Shown here one piece after another: positions 50,637 through 59,449 of a stretch of 64,000 bases of DNA. Under the pieces are notes generated by a model, which made no database searches, was not told where the DNA came from, and saw only the letters and a program-made list of their open reading frames with translations. The translations under genes and the position numbers were made by a program. The stretch is from positions 29,961 to 93,960 of the forward strand of contig DAIDGW010000035.1 of the NCBI GenBank assembly GCA_027452245.1, written 5' to 3'. The stretch's first letter is position 1. Every line of letters begins with the position of its first letter. This stretch comes from Acidobacteriaceae bacterium (GTDB lineage: Bacteria; Acidobacteriota; Terriglobia; Terriglobales; Acidobacteriaceae).

Positions 50637-51395
50637 TCAGGTTTCGGACTGCGGCGAACTGGAACCATGCAGTCCACATTCGGTTTTGGCGAAACCGGGC
50701 CAGCGACCGGCGCGAGGATCCTCGCCGGCAGAAACAGCACGCGTGCAGTGAGTGCAGCCGATGGTAGGATAGTTCTGCTGATGCAAGGGATTGAACGGAA
50801 CATCATACCGGTAGATGTAATCCCACACCTGGGCTGAGGTCCAATCGACGATGGGATTGATCTTAATCAGCCCGAACGAGGCGTCCCATTCAATTCGACG
50901 AGCGTGAGCGCGAGCGGAGGTCTGATCTCGGCGGATGCTGGTGATCCAGGCATTAAGTGTTCGCAGGTGCTGACGCAGGGGCTCAACCTTGCGCAGGCGG
51001 CAACACTGGTCGGGATCGCGTTCCCACAAATGCGGGCCATGGAGGCGGTCCTGTTCCTCGGGAGAAAGCTGGGGATAAATGCGCTCAATTGTGATGCCAT
51101 AGCGCCGCTCAATTGCTTCCATCAGCGAATACGTTTCCGGAAAAAGAAATTCGGTGTCGAGGGTAAACAGACGAAAGCGCACGCCCAGGCGCGATGCCAT
51201 ATCGGTGACAGTAACGCCTTCAGCCCCGAAGGCGGAAGAGACAGCAACTCGATCCCCAAAGGTCTGAAGAGCCCAGCGCAGGGTGTGTGCTGGAGTCCAC
51301 GACTCAGCCTGGGACTGCAATCCGGCCAGCAAATCCTGGCCATGCAAACGGTCATTCACGCAACTGGCTCCTTGGGTTGTAGAACGACTTGGCAT
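50637..51395 (-). CDS. cysH: Phosphoadenylyl/adenylyl-sulfate reductase, APS-reductase type
   Basis: AVSSAFGAEGVTVTDMASR, FTLDTEFLFPETY, CCRLRKVEPL, IGCTHCTRAVSAGEDPRAGRWPGFAKTECGLH (the Cys motifs of 4Fe-4S APS reductases). Confidence 0.93.
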   Translation of the reverse strand: MPSRSTTQGASCVNDRLHGQDLLAGLQSQAESWTPAHTLRWALQTFGDRVAVSSAFGAEGVTVTDMASRLGVRFRLFTLDTEFLFPETYSLMEAIERRYGITIERIYPQLSPEEQDRLHGPHLWERDPDQCCRLRKVEPLRQHLRTLNAWITSIRRDQTSARAHARRIEWDASFGLIKINPIVDWTSAQVWDYIYRYDVPFNPLHQQNYPTIGCTHCTRAVSAGEDPRAGRWPGFAKTECGLHGSSSPQSET

Positions 51396-52195
51396 TCCGA
51401 CAGTAGATTCTGAAGGATATCAGGGGGAAGAAGGTGTGCGATTCCGGTCTTAGGGGGCGATGTGGAAATCGGCGATGCATTCGAGCAAGCGGCGAACTGA
51501 ACGACGTCGCCGATGATCAGCAGGGCGGGAGCGGGCAGAACGGGGAGTTCTCTCAATTTCTGAAGAGAAGTGAGAGCCAATTCTTCGGCGGGAGTAGTAG
51601 CACGCGAGATTATGGCACAGGGAGTTTCACGCGAAACTCCAGCACGAACGAGGCGACGAGAAACTTCGGCGTAACCCGTACCAGGCATGTAAATGACCAG
51701 CGTGGCTCCGGGGACAATGAATTTTTCCCAGACAACGTCTTCAACGCTGGCGGCGGAGTGGGCTGTAATGAAAATAACGGCTGAAGAAACTCCACGAAGG
51801 GTCAATGGGAGTTGGGACGAAGCGGCCGCTCCAAGGGCAGAGGTCACGCCCGGAATGACTTCGCATTTGATTCCGGCCGCGCGCAAGGCTTGGAGTTCTT
51901 CGCCGGCGCGGCCGAAGATCATAGGATCGCCGCTCTTGAAGCGTACAACATGGAGTCCAGAAGCGGCGAGGGAGACCAAAAGAAAGCTGATTTCCTCCTG
52001 ACTGATTTTCTTTGCAGCGCAGCGCTTGCCGACGTTGAGGATTCGGATGCGAGGAGGGATCAGCTTAAGGATCTCGGGGAAAACGAGATCGTCATGCAAA
52101 ACCACGTCGGCTGATTGCAGCAGACGCAGGGCTTTCAGAGTAAGCAAATCCGGATCGCCCGGTCCGGCGCCAACCAAGGAGACTTTGCCTTTCAC
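51356..52195 (-). CDS. cobA: Uroporphyrinogen-III C-methyltransferase
   Basis: VSLVGAGPGDPDLLTLKALRLLQSADVVLHDDLV, VVRFKSGDPMIFGRAGEELQALRAAGI, VIPGVTSALGAAA. Confidence 0.95.
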   Translation of the reverse strand: MKGKVSLVGAGPGDPDLLTLKALRLLQSADVVLHDDLVFPEILKLIPPRIRILNVGKRCAAKKISQEEISFLLVSLAASGLHVVRFKSGDPMIFGRAGEELQALRAAGIKCEVIPGVTSALGAAASSQLPLTLRGVSSAVIFITAHSAASVEDVVWEKFIVPGATLVIYMPGTGYAEVSRRLVRAGVSRETPCAIISRATTPAEELALTSLQKLRELPVLPAPALLIIGDVVQFAACSNASPISTSPPKTGIAHLLPPDILQNLLSECQVVLQPKEPVA

Positions 52196-52809
52196 GCGCG
52201 GACTCCTTCCACCGGCTGTTTCTGTCTGTCTCGCGCCAGTTCAAACGCTTGCCGGCTGGCGAGGGAGTGCAATAGTTCGCTTTTGGTTTCAGGATCAAGA
52301 TCGCTGGCAAGGATCAGCTTTCGCGTTTCTCCAAGTTCGGCGACCCAAGGCGCATAAGCTGGTCCGAACTGCGTTTCAAGTTGCCTCCGCAATTTCTGCG
52401 CCAACGACGGGCTTTGGCCAGCGGTGGAGATGGCAATCTGGAGATAGCCGCGGCGGACGACCGCGGGATAGAAAAAGTCGGAGAGATCCGGGACATCGAC
52501 GACATTGCAGAGCACCCCGCGTTTTTGTGATTCGAGGAATATCGATTCGTCGAGAGAACGGGCACGGGTGGCGGCGATTACGAGAAAAACGTCGTCCAAG
52601 TCTTCGGGGGCGAAACCTCGAATGATGAGTTCAACTGTTCCCTGCTGGGCCCATGCGCGAACACGTTCGGAGGCTTCGCAGGCGACAACACGGATGAGAG
52701 CACCGGTGTCGAGGAGTCCGGCAATCTTCTGCTCTCCAACTGCGCCCGCACCCACGACGAGGCAGCGGCGGCCGGCAAGCTTCAGGAATACGGGAAACAG
52801 AGCGGTCAT
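52192..52809 (-). CDS. Precorrin-2 dehydrogenase / siroheme synthase N-terminal-type protein
   Basis: MTALFPVFLKLAGRRCLVVGAGAVGEQKIAGLLDTGA, CNVVDVPDLSDFFYPAVVRRGYLQIAISTAGQSPSLAQKLRR. Start set to ATG 52809, not the tracked 53148. Confidence 0.92.
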   Translation of the reverse strand: MTALFPVFLKLAGRRCLVVGAGAVGEQKIAGLLDTGALIRVVACEASERVRAWAQQGTVELIIRGFAPEDLDDVFLVIAATRARSLDESIFLESQKRGVLCNVVDVPDLSDFFYPAVVRRGYLQIAISTAGQSPSLAQKLRRQLETQFGPAYAPWVAELGETRKLILASDLDPETKSELLHSLASRQAFELARDRQKQPVEGVRA

Positions 52810-54521
52810 ACTTCGGCTCCGCTGGGAAGTCGTCCTGAGGGGAGGTCGCGAGCGACGGCATCGAGCGCTTGCCCGGCCAGAAATTCGCGGAGCTGATCGT
52901 TGCTGTGGCGGGCGAAGAACTGCCGCAGATTTTCGCCGCCTTCGCGGTCGATGAGGTAACGGCGGAGCAAACGTTCGATGGCCGCAGGAACATCGGCGGC
53001 GCGGCAGCGATATCCCACTGGGCGAGCGATGGACTGATGCAATCCCACAGCGCCCCCGAGACAAAAGTAATAAGCATCGAGGAGGCGACCCTGCTCTTTG
53101 ATTTTCTTGCCTTCGATGCCTATGTCGGCGATCCAGTGCTGGCCGCAACTATTGGGGCAGCCGGTAACGTGCAGTTTCAGATGCTGGTCGAAACCCGGAA
53201 GGAGTTCGTCCAGTTCTTCGGCAAGCCAGCGCGAAAAACTTTTGGTTTCAGTGATTGCGAGCTTGCAGAATTCGGTGCCGCTGCAGGCGACGATTCCGCG
53301 GTGGAACGCGGAACTGGCGACGGGCAATCCAATAGCGTCGAGTTCATTCGCGAGCGCGTTGGAACGGAGCCGAGGCACATTGGCGATGAGAAGGTTCTGC
53401 ATACTCGTGGTGCGCAACTCGCCAGAGGCGAAACGCTCAGAAAGTTCGGCGGCTGCACGCATCTGGTCGGCGGAGATGCGCCCTCGCAGAACCGAAGCGC
53501 CCACGTAGTGGAAACCATCGTGCTTTTGCGCGTGGATTCCGACATGATCGCGGTATTCGTCGGATGGCAGATACTCCTCGGGAGCAGTATCCAAATGGAA
53601 GCCAAGACGCTGATGTAACTCGTAGAGAAAACGGTCGGCAGTCCAGCCGTGTTGCAGAAAAAGAAACTTCAGGCGAGCGCGTTCGCGATGCTCACGGAGA
53701 ATGCCGGAGTCGCGAAAGATTTCAGCGATTCCCTTGAGAACCGGAATGACCTGGCCCCATGGAATGAACGCGTTGAGGCGAACACCGAGATGGGGATCGG
53801 TGGAAAGCCCTCCGGCAATACGGAGTGAGAAGCCAATGTGGCGCCTGCCGCGAGAATGGCGGGCTGTCGCCGTCAAACCGATGTCGTTGATTTCAGGATA
53901 TGGGCACCAGACTCGGCAGCCGGTGATACAAATTTTGAACTTGCGCGGCAGATTGTAAAATTCCGAATTACCGGCAAAGAACCGGGAGGCTTCAAGCGCG
54001 AGAGGCGAGGCATCGATTGTCTCGGCAGCATCGATACCTGCAACCGGACATCCGGTGATGTTTCGAGTCACGTCGCCGCACGCGCCCATTGTGTTCAGCC
54101 TAGCGCGGGTGAGGGTATCGAGAAGATCGGGGAGATCCGCGATGCTGACGTGATGGAGTTGAATATTCTGCCGAACCGTTATGTCGGCAATACCTCGAGC
54201 GTAGCGCTGGGCAAGATCAGCAATGGTGTGGAGTTGGGAGGAAGTAAGTAATCCGTTGGGAACACGAATGCGCACCATAAAGCGCTCGATGGACTTGCCT
54301 ACTCCTCCGTGGCCGCCGGTGACACCGAGGCCGTCTCCCTGGGTATAAACACCCCACCAGCGAAGATATGTTTCCAGCCAGTCGGGAGGGATGGAGCTAA
54401 AACCTTCTTGGGAAAAGCGGCGAATTTCGTCGAGACCTTTCCAGGGATTCTGCGCGCGCTTCAACCGCTCAGCCCGTTGGGTTTTTGTCTCTTTCATCGA
54501 ATTGGAAATGTCGGAAGCCAT
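52806..54521 (-). CDS. Ferredoxin-type nitrite/sulfite reductase
   Basis: FMVRIRVPNGLLTSSQL, VTRNITGCPVAGID, LPRKFKICITGCRVWCPYPEINDIG, CSGTEFCKLAITETK, LHVTGCPNSCGQHWIADIG. Start set to ATG 54521 after GGAAAA; tracked start 54536 is TTG. Confidence 0.93.
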   Translation of the reverse strand: MASDISNSMKETKTQRAERLKRAQNPWKGLDEIRRFSQEGFSSIPPDWLETYLRWWGVYTQGDGLGVTGGHGGVGKSIERFMVRIRVPNGLLTSSQLHTIADLAQRYARGIADITVRQNIQLHHVSIADLPDLLDTLTRARLNTMGACGDVTRNITGCPVAGIDAAETIDASPLALEASRFFAGNSEFYNLPRKFKICITGCRVWCPYPEINDIGLTATARHSRGRRHIGFSLRIAGGLSTDPHLGVRLNAFIPWGQVIPVLKGIAEIFRDSGILREHRERARLKFLFLQHGWTADRFLYELHQRLGFHLDTAPEEYLPSDEYRDHVGIHAQKHDGFHYVGASVLRGRISADQMRAAAELSERFASGELRTTSMQNLLIANVPRLRSNALANELDAIGLPVASSAFHRGIVACSGTEFCKLAITETKSFSRWLAEELDELLPGFDQHLKLHVTGCPNSCGQHWIADIGIEGKKIKEQGRLLDAYYFCLGGAVGLHQSIARPVGYRCRAADVPAAIERLLRRYLIDREGGENLRQFFARHSNDQLREFLAGQALDAVARDLPSGRLPSGAEV

Positions 54522-54540
54522 ATGTTTTCCAAACAAATGA

Positions 54541-54575
54541 AAAACCCACCGTCAGATTGCTCTGGCGATGGGTTT
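54541..54575 (-). terminator. Intrinsic terminator/attenuator hairpin in the sulfur operon leader
   Basis: Minus strand AAACCCATCGCCAGA-GCAA-TCTGACGGTGGGTTT then T (run of five T); 13 Watson-Crick pairs, one G-U, one mismatch; ends just before the reductase ribosome-binding region. Confidence 0.8.
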
Positions 54576-54600
54576 GGAATATGCCGGTCTTATGAAATTT

Positions 54601-54687
54601 CTAAGTCAGCCATCTCCCTGCGCCAGTGCACACGCATGCACAACAGCAACACATGCAAGTTGCGCGGCGATCAAGAAGAGCTGCCAT
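54601..54687 (-). CDS. Cysteine-rich leader peptide (28 aa), candidate attenuator uORF
   Basis: ATG GCA GCT CTT CTT GAT CGC CGC GCA ACT TGC ATG TGT TGC TGT TGT GCA TGC GTG TGC ACT GGC GCA GGG AGA TGG CTG ACT TAG = MAALLDRRATCMCCCCACVCTGAGRWLT. Confidence 0.82.
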   Translation of the reverse strand: MAALLDRRATCMCCCCACVCTGAGRWLT

Positions 54688-54698
54688 AACTTGCAGGG

Positions 54699-54728
54699 AT
54701 TCTACGTGCGGGCCCTTAGGCGCGTCAA
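54699..54728 (-). promoter_or_regulatory. Sigma70-like promoter for the leader and sulfur operon
   Basis: TTGACG (54728-54723), 18-nt spacer, TAGAAT (54704-54699); predicted start about 4-6 nt before the leader ATG at 54687. Confidence 0.65.
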
Positions 54729-54871
54729 CAAAAGTCTGCGGTTTCGATATTCAAAGTTCAGCTAGAAGGAATCGCAAATTTCGATGAAGCGGTAACCGAT
54801 TTGAGCCAGGGATTACTTTGCGTATGCGATCGCAGGAAACGTGAATGTAGCTGGGGCGCATCCGATGACAT

Positions 54872-55036
54872 ATGGCAGCGATCACGATGGAAGAGCGAGA
54901 GCGAATTGTCCGATTATGCAGTCGACTCGAACAGGAAGAAGATCCCAATGCGTTTCTGGAAACAGTCGGAGAGTTAGTGAATGCACTGGAGACTGAGAAG
55001 CAGGCGACTCAAGAGCAGAAATCGGGAAAACTGTAA
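54872..55036 (+). CDS. Hypothetical small protein (54 aa)
   Basis: MAAITMEERERIVRLCSRLEQEEDPNAFLETVGELVNALETEKQATQEQKSGKL; below the ORF-track size limit. Confidence 0.5.
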   Translation: MAAITMEERERIVRLCSRLEQEEDPNAFLETVGELVNALETEKQATQEQKSGKL

Positions 55037-55156
55037 TCAAAACGGTTCATTCACGGTGCTCTGGAATAAGTGGTCCGGGCAGTCGACTCCCCGCGGGATG
55101 GGCGAATGACGCAGCCGGAATGTTTCGACGGGATCGAAAATTCCATTAACTGGACT

Positions 55157-56878
55157 TCAGGTCGTCGCGGAGGAAGTGCCGCTCCGCGTCATCCGGGGAA
55201 GCAGGATCAGAATCAGACCGTAGAACAGAAGCGAGACCACCAGCGACGCGGGGTTACCAAATCGCAGGTCTTCGAATAATAGCTTCAATGTGCCGAAGGC
55301 GACAGCCCCATACGCGAGATACCCAAGTTCGATGTGCTTCCAGCGCGAGCCAAGATATCCCAGCCCCACCGCAAGCAAGCAATTTACCGCGGTCCTGATG
55401 ACAGCCAGGCGAGGCGCATCGAGATCAACCCAAGCGCGAGACAAACGGACGATCGCGACTACGGCAAGCACAGCGGCAGCCAGGGCCACAAGGAAGGCAG
55501 GCACGATCCAAAGCATGCGGCGGGCTTTCTGCTCTTCAGAAATCCAAGAGCCAATTACGTAGCAGAGCGCGGCTGAGCCAACGACAAGCAAAAGACTCCA
55601 GTCAGGGGCCTGCGGGACTGTTCCACCAAGAGCACTTTCTGCATAGTGCGGCAAAGACGATACCGCGGCTGCTGCTGCAAGACAGAACGACGCGTGCATT
55701 CCCAGGGTGAGCTTGCGAGTGCGGGTGTATACGAAGGCTGCTGCAACGGCCACCAGGCACAGAAACGGCGATTGCAGAGTTGCGGGAAAGGTCAGGAAAG
55801 TTCCAGCCAGAAGAAGTACCGCGGCAGCATGAGCGGAGACGCGACGATTGCGCGGGTAGGGTTCATCAGCAAATCTCCGTAGAGCGCCCCAATAACATAA
55901 GCCGGAAAGTATCAAGAACAATGCGCCCTCGGCGCTCACAGCGGCACCGTGCGTTGCGCGCATGACGCCAAGGGACGAAAGCACGAGGATCAGAACAAGT
56001 TGAACGATTTCAAAAATGGTTATGCGCTGACGCCATGCGAACGTACGGATGCCGATGCTGGCCCCGTAGATGGCCAGAAGGGCGATCGACAAAGCGAGGA
56101 TGGTGGCGTGACTGGCGGGATGATAGTCCTCAGGTACGCCAGCGTGGGAGGTCATGACATCGATGAGGAGCCACAGGGCAAAATCGGCAGCGAGGGCCGG
56201 AATGGCGCGAACAGTGAGGCGGCGCTCGAGGCACGCCAATTCGGTGACGAGAGCGGCTGCCAGCAGCGCAGTGGTGAGCGCGACCAGCTCATGGGTGGCA
56301 ATGATGAGCGCTATGGCGATCGATATTCCGGCAAGAGTTGCCACCCAGGGGATCAACTGCAGGTCGTGAGACCGGGCCAGCGCCAAGCTCAGAACGAGAA
56401 AAGCAACCAACACGACAGCCGCGAAGCTGGGAGACAAGACCTGGAAGCGGACGGTGGACTCCCACAGCAGAGGTGACAGGATGGCGGCAGAAGTGATGGC
56501 GTAAGCGGCGCAGGCAAAACGGTTGGCGGCATGGGCTCGAACTGCCCAAACCATCCACAAGCCGGCATAAGCGACGGCTACGGCGAGTACGGGCAGTTTA
56601 GGGACCCAACCGGACTCAGCGATGGCGCGCAGCAGATACGCGCCTGCAATTCCCAGAACCGCCTTTCCGAGAATCGGCCCGGCTCCGACAGACAAGTCCG
56701 TAGGAAGGAATCCTCTCCGGACTGCAGGAGATGGCTGCGGTTCCAGTGCAACATCCGGCGGAGATGAAAGCTGTTGTTCAGCCTTATGCTCGAGTGCGTA
56801 AACGCGTTGTTCCAGTTCGTGGAGGCGTTCGCTGAGCTGTTCAAGATCCAACCCAATGCTGCCAGAAGCGTGAGCCAC
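55157..56878 (-). CDS. Multi-TM membrane protein (DUF2339-like)
   Basis: N-terminal coiled coil (LEQLSERLHELEQRVYALEHK) then many TM helices. Confidence 0.65.
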   Translation of the reverse strand: MAHASGSIGLDLEQLSERLHELEQRVYALEHKAEQQLSSPPDVALEPQPSPAVRRGFLPTDLSVGAGPILGKAVLGIAGAYLLRAIAESGWVPKLPVLAVAVAYAGLWMVWAVRAHAANRFACAAYAITSAAILSPLLWESTVRFQVLSPSFAAVVLVAFLVLSLALARSHDLQLIPWVATLAGISIAIALIIATHELVALTTALLAAALVTELACLERRLTVRAIPALAADFALWLLIDVMTSHAGVPEDYHPASHATILALSIALLAIYGASIGIRTFAWRQRITIFEIVQLVLILVLSSLGVMRATHGAAVSAEGALFLILSGLCYWGALRRFADEPYPRNRRVSAHAAAVLLLAGTFLTFPATLQSPFLCLVAVAAAFVYTRTRKLTLGMHASFCLAAAAAVSSLPHYAESALGGTVPQAPDWSLLLVVGSAALCYVIGSWISEEQKARRMLWIVPAFLVALAAAVLAVVAIVRLSRAWVDLDAPRLAVIRTAVNCLLAVGLGYLGSRWKHIELGYLAYGAVAFGTLKLLFEDLRFGNPASLVVSLLFYGLILILLPRMTRSGTSSATT

Positions 56879-56912: not shown

Positions 56913-58112
56913 CTAGGTTGTTCCGTGCGCCGGAGTTGTCCCGGAGGCGGGAAGAGAACCCGCGTCTGGCCACGGCGGCAGGAGTTTCACGAGAACCCAC
57001 AAGATTCCGAAAGGAAGAATCATCAGCACAATCGCGGTCAGCAGGCCTTCACGCGTGGCAAAGCCCATTTTATAAGTGGTGTATCCGAGGAAGCTTTTAG
57101 AAAAAAGCTGGCCGCCTATAACAACGTTCCATCGCATGGCAAAGATGCCGACAACCGTCAGAGAGCCAGCGATGGCATAAATCCGTTTGCGCGCCGTGTC
57201 GGTGAGCGTAAGGACCTGGGTCAAACCCAGCAGCACGATCGGCGTTACGGTGCCGAGAAGAATTTGAATGATGACTTGCGAGGTCCACAGCCGGGTATGG
57301 ACCATGAAATCAAGACTGCGGAAGGATTCGTCGGCCTCATAGATGCGCTGCAATAGATCGAGCATCTCAAGGCTGAAGTCGATGACAAAGGTATAGAGCA
57401 GGTAGCGTGCGATCGTGTCGACACATCGCATGTCGATGGTCCGGGTCCGGAGGTGGGTTGTCAGCATGTAGAGCAACATCACCGCCGCGATGCCCGATAC
57501 CATCGCTGAAAAGATGAAAACAATCGGCATCAAGGGAGACGACCACCATGGGTTTGCCTTGACCGATCCGAAGATGAAACCAACGTAGCCGTGAAGCAGG
57601 AAGGCGGAAGGGATGCCGATCAGGGTGATGAAATAACCGAGTCTTTCATCAATGCGCAGCGAGCGCTCGCTGATGTTATTGGAACCCAGGCTGAGCAGCC
57701 GATACAGGAGACGGGTGAATCCCTGCGAGGTCTGCGCCTTCAAAACGATGTCACGGCGGTAGTCGAGCCAGATCTCCAATAACAGGACCGCCATCAGATA
57801 CCAGAGATAAACGAACCCGAACATGGCCATGGCGGAGGAACGGTGCGGCGTGAGATACATTTCGAAGGAGCGCTCGGGATGCCCGAGGTGCAGTTGCAGT
57901 GGCATGGGCGCAACCAGAAGGAACGAGAGCGCCGTCAACAATGCCAGACGGTAGGTCGGCTTAACCGCTTCCACGCGGAAGACGCGCTCCAGTGAAGCCA
58001 GAATAAATGCGCCCGCAACCAGTCCCGTGATGTAGGGATAAAGGACGATGAGGACACTCCACTGGAGTTCCACCTCGTTGGGATACATGAAGCCTTCGAC
58101 CGGGATTTGCAC
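56913..58112 (-). CDS. NrfD/PsrC-family membrane subunit
   Basis: Eight or more TM helices; LRLALLTALSFLLVAPMPLQLHLGHPERSFEMYLTPHRSSAMAMFGFVYLWYL region; adjacent to a ferredoxin-like subunit. Confidence 0.85.
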   Translation of the reverse strand: MQIPVEGFMYPNEVELQWSVLIVLYPYITGLVAGAFILASLERVFRVEAVKPTYRLALLTALSFLLVAPMPLQLHLGHPERSFEMYLTPHRSSAMAMFGFVYLWYLMAVLLLEIWLDYRRDIVLKAQTSQGFTRLLYRLLSLGSNNISERSLRIDERLGYFITLIGIPSAFLLHGYVGFIFGSVKANPWWSSPLMPIVFIFSAMVSGIAAVMLLYMLTTHLRTRTIDMRCVDTIARYLLYTFVIDFSLEMLDLLQRIYEADESFRSLDFMVHTRLWTSQVIIQILLGTVTPIVLLGLTQVLTLTDTARKRIYAIAGSLTVVGIFAMRWNVVIGGQLFSKSFLGYTTYKMGFATREGLLTAIVLMILPFGILWVLVKLLPPWPDAGSLPASGTTPAHGTT

Positions 58113-58133
58113 GAGCCTCCTTACGACGACGAC

Positions 58134-58865
58134 TTAACGAACGGAACCATCCATGCCGTTGTAAAAAACCTTTGCTCCTGTGGCCATGTGCGGCTTCAGC
58201 ACCTGTACGGTGTGAGTCCGCAGGAATTCATGAATCGGATCATTGGGATTCTTCAGGTCCGCCAGTTGGCGAGCACCCGTCGGGCAGACTTCACAACACG
58301 CCGTGGTCAGGCCCTTGGTGATGCGGTGATAGCAAAGGGTGCACTTTTCCGCAGTGTTGGTTTTGGGATTGATGAACCGGCAGCCATAGGGGCAGGCCTG
58401 GACGCAATAACGACAGCCGAGACAGTAAGTCTTGTCGACCAGCACGACACCGTCGGGAGTGCTGAAGGTTGCGCCCACGGGACAAACCTGCGTGCAGGGA
58501 GAATCTGAGCAGTGGTTGCAAAGCTTGGGGACGAAGAAATTCTTGCCGCCACTTTCTTCGTTGGGCGGAAAACCCTGCTTGCCACCGTTGGGCGATTCCA
58601 CCTCCGGCCTTTCAATTTTCCAATCGGAGACGTGGTAACGCTCGACCCAGGTGCGGAAATATCCCTCAGGGACATCGTTTTCGTTGGCACAAGCGCGCAC
58701 ACAACTGCCACAACCGATGCACTTGGGGATATCGATCAGCATGGCCCACCAGTGGTCGGTGAGCTTGTAATTAGGAGAAGACTCGGGCGTGCCCGCCTCG
58801 ACATACTTCCAGGCCACAGCAGCGGCGGGCAAAAGCATCAGCAGACGGCGGCGGGAGAGATCCAT
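58134..58865 (-). CDS. 4Fe-4S dicluster ferredoxin-like electron transfer subunit
   Basis: CIGCGSCVRACANENDVPEG, CNHCSDSPCTQVCPVGATF, CLGCRYCVQACPYGCRFINP, CTLCYHR...CCEVCPTGAR. Confidence 0.93.
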   Translation of the reverse strand: MDLSRRRLLMLLPAAAVAWKYVEAGTPESSPNYKLTDHWWAMLIDIPKCIGCGSCVRACANENDVPEGYFRTWVERYHVSDWKIERPEVESPNGGKQGFPPNEESGGKNFFVPKLCNHCSDSPCTQVCPVGATFSTPDGVVLVDKTYCLGCRYCVQACPYGCRFINPKTNTAEKCTLCYHRITKGLTTACCEVCPTGARQLADLKNPNDPIHEFLRTHTVQVLKPHMATGAKVFYNGMDGSVR

Positions 58866-59449
58866 TAGTTTTTCCTCCCCGACGCGGCCGTCTTTTCGTC
58901 TTCAATTCTTGGCTTATGCGGCTGGTGGCAGGTATCGCAGGCAACCCCGCCGGAATGATCGGCGGTCACCACCTGTGGGAACCATTTGGGTTTGGCGCTG
59001 TTGGCCTCGTGACAACGAGCACAGAGAACGGCGGTGTCGAGTTTGGGCGGAGTAACCGACGCGGGATCGTCGGCATGCTTAGCCAAGGGGCCATGGCAAG
59101 CTTCGCACGGGACGCCAACATGCTTGCCGAGCTTCTTTTGCTCGACGACATCGGTATGGCAGCCCTCGCAGACAGTGTGGCCGGCATAAGAAATCGGATG
59201 GGCGGCCGCCTCAGCGATAGCGGCTCCTCGGTAGTGGCCGTACTGTCCAAAGGAGCGAGGGACAACGGCAGCACGCAACACAATGAAGGCGATCAGGCCA
59301 ATCGCCATGACAGCAGCCAGACGGATGAGGTGTTCTATGTCTTTGAACACGTGGTTTTTTCCATGCGCCGGAGTCTGGATCGCAGGACCCGAAAAGCGCA
59401 TTGTTCTTCGATACCGAGTAATTTTGTTTCGAACGATGACCGGGGTCAC
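58865..59449 (-). CDS. Membrane-anchored tetraheme cytochrome c
   Basis: Four CxxCH motifs: CEGCH, CEACH, CARCH, CDTCH; N-terminal TM helix. Confidence 0.85.
   Translation of the reverse strand: MTPVIVRNKITRYRRTMRFSGPAIQTPAHGKNHVFKDIEHLIRLAAVMAIGLIAFIVLRAAVVPRSFGQYGHYRGAAIAEAAAHPISYAGHTVCEGCHTDVVEQKKLGKHVGVPCEACHGPLAKHADDPASVTPPKLDTAVLCARCHEANSAKPKWFPQVVTADHSGGVACDTCHQPHKPRIEDEKTAASGRKN

Follow-up and report, generated by a model that had tools for sequence, protein, structure and literature searches.

The window, i.e. the 64,000-nucleotide stretch of DNA from a soil Acidobacteriaceae bacterium analyzed here, carries on its reverse strand a short putative leader open reading frame (ORF) rich in Cys codons, a hairpin with a U tract and four genes. 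In order of transcription, the features of this locus are as follows:

54699..54728 (-): predicted sigma-70-type promoter TTGACG-18-TAGAAT, 10 of 12 consensus matches
54687-54601 (-): putative leader ORF MAALLDRRATCMCCCCACVCTGAGRWLT followed by a stop, 28 codons, 7 Cys; a Cys-run ORF lies at the same place in relatives
54666..54683 (-): segment 1, CAGC TCTTCTTG AT CGCC, predicted to pair with segment 2; anti-antiterminator
54628..54657 (-): Cys codon run, 7 Cys, TGC ATG TGT TGC TGT TGT GCA TGC GTG TGC
54607..54626 (-): segment 2, predicted antiterminator 5' arm, composed of CTGGCG (54626-54621), GGG (54618-54616) and GATGGCTG (54614-54607)
54578..54610 (-): inner helices of the predicted antiterminator, GCTG (54610-54607)/CGGC (54586-54583) and CTTA/TAAG around the leader stop codon
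54575-54542 (-): terminator hairpin AAACCCATCGCCAGA / TCTGACGGTGGGTTT with one C-A mismatch, then the U tract TTTTT
54561..54575 (-): segment 3, AAACCCATCGCCAGA, antiterminator 3' arm and at the same time terminator 5' arm
54540..54556 (-): segment 4, TCTGACGGTGGGTTT plus U tract TTTTT (54544-54540), terminator 3' arm
52806..54521 (-): first gene, siroheme/4Fe-4S NirA-type sulfite (or nitrite) reductase, 571 aa, Pfam NIR_SIR and NIR_SIR_ferr
52192..52809 (-): precorrin-2 dehydrogenase (CysG N-terminal domain), TIGR01470, 142 bits, above cut-off
51356..52195 (-): uroporphyrinogen-III C-methyltransferase, TIGR01469, 267 bits, above cut-off
50637..51395 (-): phosphoadenylyl-sulfate reductase CysH, NF002537, 260 bits, above cut-off

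Judging by their predicted products, the four genes form a sulfate-assimilation operon, making sulfide for cysteine. The product of the first gene has its best PDB match in NirA of Mycobacterium tuberculosis (1zj8, E 9.8e-84) and matches the NCBIfam NirA-type model below the curated cut-off. With a reductase of the sulfite reductase type, the siroheme genes and CysH, the operon serves the biosynthesis of the amino acid that the leader would sense, as in other attenuators of this class, and a Cys attenuator at this position in turn supports a sulfite reductase role for the NirA-like enzyme. Further upstream on the same strand (56913-59449) lie genes for an NrfD-like membrane protein, a 4Fe-4S protein and a multiheme-like cytochrome, i.e. 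a respiratory complex module.

The upstream regions of the first gene and of its orthologues from relatives provided a comparative sample of 177 distinct sequences, including the window and some truncated contigs. A simple rule (Cys-run ORF, hairpin and U tract) recognized a leader in 152 of the 177, of which 139 were retained after doubtful ones were dropped; leaders were undetected before most orthologues on contigs labelled Rokubacteria/Methylomirabilota (e.g. L130, L133, L136-L141). The nearest named relatives of the window's genome are mostly Candidatus Sulfotelmatobacter and other Terriglobia. The number of Cys codons per leader has a median of 7 and ranges from 4 to 12 in these relatives. 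Promoter spacing places the transcription start of the window leader at about 54691-54692, leaving a predicted 5' UTR of about 4-5 nt; no Shine-Dalgarno sequence precedes the ORF, which with this start would be near-leaderless. Relatives share the arrangement: 58 of 66 leaders have promoter hexamers with at least 9 of 12 matches (the mean being 9.3, against 4.3 in shuffled sequences), the -10 element usually lies 9-10 nt from the leader ATG, and a Shine-Dalgarno-like motif precedes the leader ORF in only 4 of the 66. The leader peptide has no match among NCBIfam models. In a pattern search of the window's genome, the window leader was the only one among runs of at least four Cys codons to possess a fitting terminator.

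The stem and its five Us sit between the leader and the first gene, as expected of an intrinsic terminator. In the window, the hairpin folds with -19.8 kcal/mol (z -4.2 vs. dinucleotide shuffles), and the helix is conserved among the aligned leaders, with 92.9% of cells paired and changes of its own. Positions 54552 and 54565 form a C-A mismatch where most relatives have G-C (CTGACGG instead of CTGGCGG), which makes the window terminator weaker than is typical (-19.2 vs. a median of about -25 kcal/mol). A simple terminator scan missed this hairpin on the reverse strand, probably owing to the A-C mismatch and the strict rules of the scan.

The leader and its hairpins could instead act mainly on translation, with the pairing of segments 3 and 4 (3:4) sequestering the sulfite reductase gene's ribosome-binding region and termination playing a secondary part. 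Such an output has a parallel in mycobacteria, whose Cys-codon leaders act on the translation of downstream genes according to the account in PMC9031893 (citing Canestrari et al., 2020). It would also suit the 17 of 66 leaders in which the first (main) ATG lies no more than 15 nt from the terminator hairpin (e.g. L103, L104, L108), in some of them directly after the U tract (L103, L104), with no strong Shine-Dalgarno sequence at those downstream starts. At a median of 23.5 nt, however, the first ATG lies too far away for direct occlusion in most leaders, and a conserved GC-rich stem with a run of Us behind it is what marks an intrinsic terminator, which leaves mainly translational control improbable.

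The initial annotation had proposed that the end of the leader ORF pairs with the 5' arm of this terminator. Its core holds, with sequences and coordinates correctly given: CTGGCG (54626-54621), which begins one nucleotide past the last Cys codon, can pair with CGCCAG (54567-54562), the latter being part of CCATCGCCAG (54571-54562) within the 5' arm of the hairpin. The second half proposed at the time, ATGG/CCAT, giving 10 bp with a 7-nt bulge, has to be replaced, as it is both less stable (-8.6 kcal/mol vs. -12.9 kcal/mol for CTGGCG, a 2x2 internal loop and GGG/CCC) and not conserved, the ATGG columns reading mostly AGGC or AGGT in 69 aligned leaders with no consistent pairing. In the same alignment, 86% of cells are paired for GGG (54618-54616) with CCC (54572-54570) and 91% for the CTGGCG/CGCCAG helix, one flanking pair included. 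Once the inner helices GATG/TATT, GCTG/CGGC and CTTA/TAAG are added, the antiterminator reaches -21.0 kcal/mol; 77.5% of cells are paired in the inner helix (helix 3), with both-side changes at five of six pairs. As predicted from these pairings, the antiterminator (2:3) is a single extended hairpin with interruptions, and the stop codon of the leader falls within its upper part. The isolated fold of 54645..54557 in the window is no more stable than its shuffles (z -0.8), and some genera (e.g. L192, L196, L205) show weak 2:3 pairing in the predictions. Segment 2 also contains a G-rich, Shine-Dalgarno-like stretch (54618-54613 in the window, GGGGAGG in relatives), and many leaders keep a G-rich stretch about 6 nt before the last sense codon; beyond GGG, it might hold a terminating ribosome.

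A further element, absent from the initial annotation, directly precedes the Cys codons and competes for the same CTGGCG. In the window, this segment 1 is predicted to pair with 54624-54607 through 16 bp in three helices, and for 63 of 66 leaders the prediction (P>0.5) pairs segment 2 with the codons just before the Cys run, TCTTCGCCAG and TTGCCAGA being examples from relatives. Segments 1 and 3 are accordingly similar in sequence, and likewise segments 2 and 4. By its predicted pairing, segment 1 completes a full trp/his-type 1-2-3-4 arrangement, in which the helices 1:2, 2:3 and 3:4 are mutually exclusive.

Among close relatives, CTGGC/GCCAG is nearly invariant and by itself carries little information; covariation there comes from the flanking (outer) pair, which occurs as UA, AU, CG and GC, and from the inner helix. 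Including the inner helix, 85% of 2:3 cells are paired vs. 32-51% when the arms are slid against each other, and 21 both-side changes are seen vs. 8.5 after shuffling (0 of 500 shuffles). The covariation of 2:3, as read from the alignment, thus rests on the outer pair, the inner helix and divergent clades. Because shuffling leader by leader has little power where GC content is high, a cross-species pairing test was adopted, which compares the leader's own terminator arm with the arms of other species after removal of row and column effects (double centring). For 40 representatives, the native segment 2/segment 3 interaction amounts to -3.34 kcal/mol (null sd 0.46), with p = 5e-5 being the smallest value that 20,000 permutations can give. 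The same p of 5e-5 is obtained when the test is limited to leaders without the CTGGC/GCCAG pair, and 12 divergent representatives give p = 1e-4; an early version without the flank on the terminator arm was weaker (p = 0.0037). One such leader, L048, has CCCGA/TCGGG in place of CTGGC/GCCAG, with CCCGAGTGTGGG set against CCCATCGTCGGG. Co-adaptation of 1:2 is stronger than that of 2:3 (-4.3 to -5.1 kcal/mol, p = 5e-5; controls 0.30-0.92), and none is seen for 1:3 (p = 0.88). The controls are null, with p = 0.82 for a reversed segment 2, p = 0.84 for upstream DNA outside the leader, and p values of 0.30-0.98 over the five controls for the 2:3 and 1:2 tests. As native 2:3 arms are better matched than cross-species combinations (p = 5e-5) and the controls are null, support is not confined to the terminator helix, the outcome that the initial annotation had named as speaking against an antiterminator. 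When a covariance model was run over the phylum, the signal was mostly lost outside close relatives.

These constraints also bear on whether the leader is kept for its peptide. Translation reads the CTGGC core in frame 1 in 76 leaders, in frame 0 in 6 and in frame 2 in L066, whose C-terminus is frame-shifted to ...VRWRGEVADLK while the segment 2 RNA, CTGGCGCGGGGAGG, is intact. As all three reading frames are thus used among the leaders, selection acts on the RNA, and L066, as far as sequence comparison goes, is natural evidence for RNA rather than peptide as the selected entity. That the ORF encodes a functional small Cys-rich peptide for metal or thiol binding, the hairpin being its ordinary terminator, would explain why the Cys run is kept across phylogenetically broad relatives. 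It is nevertheless very unlikely, because residues outside the Cys run follow RNA constraints, the N-terminal codons are constrained as segment 1, and 1:2 and 2:3 are co-adapted, none of which an ordinary terminator would need. Chance complementarity in a GC-rich leader, with the terminator alone being real, would suit the single window sequence, whose post-Cys region and terminator arm pair to an only moderately unusual degree (-21.5 vs. -14.5 +/- 2.5 kcal/mol shuffled, p = 0.013) and the per-leader shuffles, which reach p<0.05 in only 57 of 152 leaders, but is scarcely credible given the cross-species permutation result, its null controls and the conserved position of the segment after the Cys run.

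Hence the antiterminator with trp/his logic proposed by the initial annotation is backed by comparative data, and the locus very probably represents a Cys-tRNA-responsive, ribosome-mediated transcription attenuator of the NirA-type sulfite reductase/siroheme/CysH operon. RNA polymerase would start a few nucleotides before the leader ATG, and a ribosome would load near the 5' end. With ample cysteine, the ribosome would pass the Cys codons and leave, 1:2 would pair, and segment 3 would be free to form 3:4, so that transcription would stop before the sulfite reductase gene. When cysteine is short, a ribosome stalled on the first Cys codons would mask segment 1 and leave segment 2 free to form 2:3 (CTGGCG/CGCCAG and GGG/CCC, enclosing the small helix around the stop codon); 3:4 would then be blocked, and transcription would continue into the genes for sulfite reductase, siroheme and PAPS/APS reduction. 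Folding of 69 leaders with a ribosome placed at the first Cys codon gives a median P(2:3) of 0.79 before segment 4 exists and 0.50 without the ribosome, whereas the full-length RNA at equilibrium has a P(3:4) of 0.97; as the terminator wins at equilibrium, the switch has to depend on the order in which helices form during transcription. With a footprint assumed to reach from 18 nt before to 11 nt after the first base of the A-site codon, a ribosome stalled on either of the first two Cys codons covers CGCC in segment 1 while segment 2 stays free, and in the median leader stalls at 6 of 7 Cys codons leave the whole of segment 2 free. Masking of segment 1 by a stalled ribosome would follow from this modelled geometry. 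The initial annotation had assumed that a ribosome reaching the stop codon covers segment 2; this applies to GGG, whereas at usual footprint sizes CTGGCG would only be abutted, and for this reason the off state appears better explained by the 1:2 hairpin.

The classic trp/his-type ribosome-mediated transcription attenuators are those of Proteobacteria. The window element resembles them in its short leader ORF, where codons of the regulated amino acid form a run, in the mutually exclusive helices 1:2, 2:3 and 3:4, and in the intrinsic terminator before a biosynthetic operon. It differs in that cysteine would be the amino acid sensed, in its occurrence in Acidobacteriota, in the location of the Cys codons in the loop between segments 1 and 2, and in being nearly leaderless (predicted 5' UTR of about 4-5 nt), whereas trp/his leaders have a Shine-Dalgarno sequence. 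Mycobacterial polycysteine leaderless short ORFs control translation, as the work of Canestrari et al. (2020) is cited in PMC9031893 and PMC13236596; genes with Cys-codon leaders in mycobacteria include nirA (PMC4633059, Fig 7), and no conserved terminator was found for these leaders (PMC1262725). Likenesses to the window are the Cys-codon leader, the leaderless start, which for the window is a prediction from promoter spacing, and the position upstream of sulfur genes including nirA, whose mycobacterial product is the nearest solved relative of the window operon's first enzyme. In contrast to the translational control reported for mycobacteria in the portrayal of PMC9031893, the window has a conserved intrinsic terminator and a predicted antiterminator. 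The uORFC-8-2 motif before cysS in Rhodobacterales comprises a predicted Cys-codon uORF and a terminator stem with a U run, and transcription attenuation by Cys-tRNA was proposed (PMC8632094). It differs in its two tandem Cys codons, its cysS target and its occurrence in Alphaproteobacteria, and no antiterminator covariation is reported (PMC8632094); no sequence relation to the window leader was seen, and 54000-55500 gave no Rfam match up to E=1. In their 2010 survey, Naville and Gautheret could assign a function to hardly any predicted attenuator of Acidobacteria (PMC2965389), and among open-access papers no description of a Cys attenuator in Acidobacteriota was found. The window leader would thus add a Cys case to a known attenuator type in a phylum with few function-assigned attenuators. 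Cys-codon leaders also appear to have been recruited before NirA-type sulfite reductases in at least two phyla, with an output that would differ between them: termination here and translation in mycobacteria. The near-leaderless start, if true, would couple ribosome loading tightly to transcription.

Finally, a leader model (R1) was searched in 101 relatives and gave a single match in the window's own genome. Elsewhere, R1 matched Cys-run leaders with a terminator before a CysD-like gene, a TauE/SafE-like exporter, a Pyr_redox_2 (SQR-like) oxidoreductase, an AhpC/TSA peroxiredoxin and a second NirA-type reductase, a pattern that may, going by gene annotation, represent a cysteine-attenuator regulon; these Cys leaders occur in L332, L327, L334, L341, L343 and L333. 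R1 also matched a Thr/Ile-rich leader, MTTLIQKSTRITSTGTGMSTRITCLLEDGIG, before aspartokinase, and an Ile/Val/Leu-rich leader, MNSRLHTIAVVARISSRVQIIVRHGALLEESIC, with a similar terminator before ilvC (ketol-acid reductoisomerase). Whether these leaders belong to one Acidobacteriota attenuator family is an evenly balanced question: the RNA scaffold (segment 2 and terminator) would be shared and the leader codons re-coded per amino acid, with Cys before sulfur genes, the window being this version, Thr/Ile before aspartokinase and Ile/Val/Leu before ilvC. The ilvC leaders are found in L331 (ilvC at 688-1728), L338 and L342, and the aspartokinase type in L319 (leader near 250-400, aspartokinase at 439-1905), L317, L318, L320 and L325. 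Many genomes of the same genus carry, on the opposite strand at a distance of about 5.5 kb, a second attenuator, consisting of a Thr/Ile-rich aspartokinase leader whose terminator is nearly the same.
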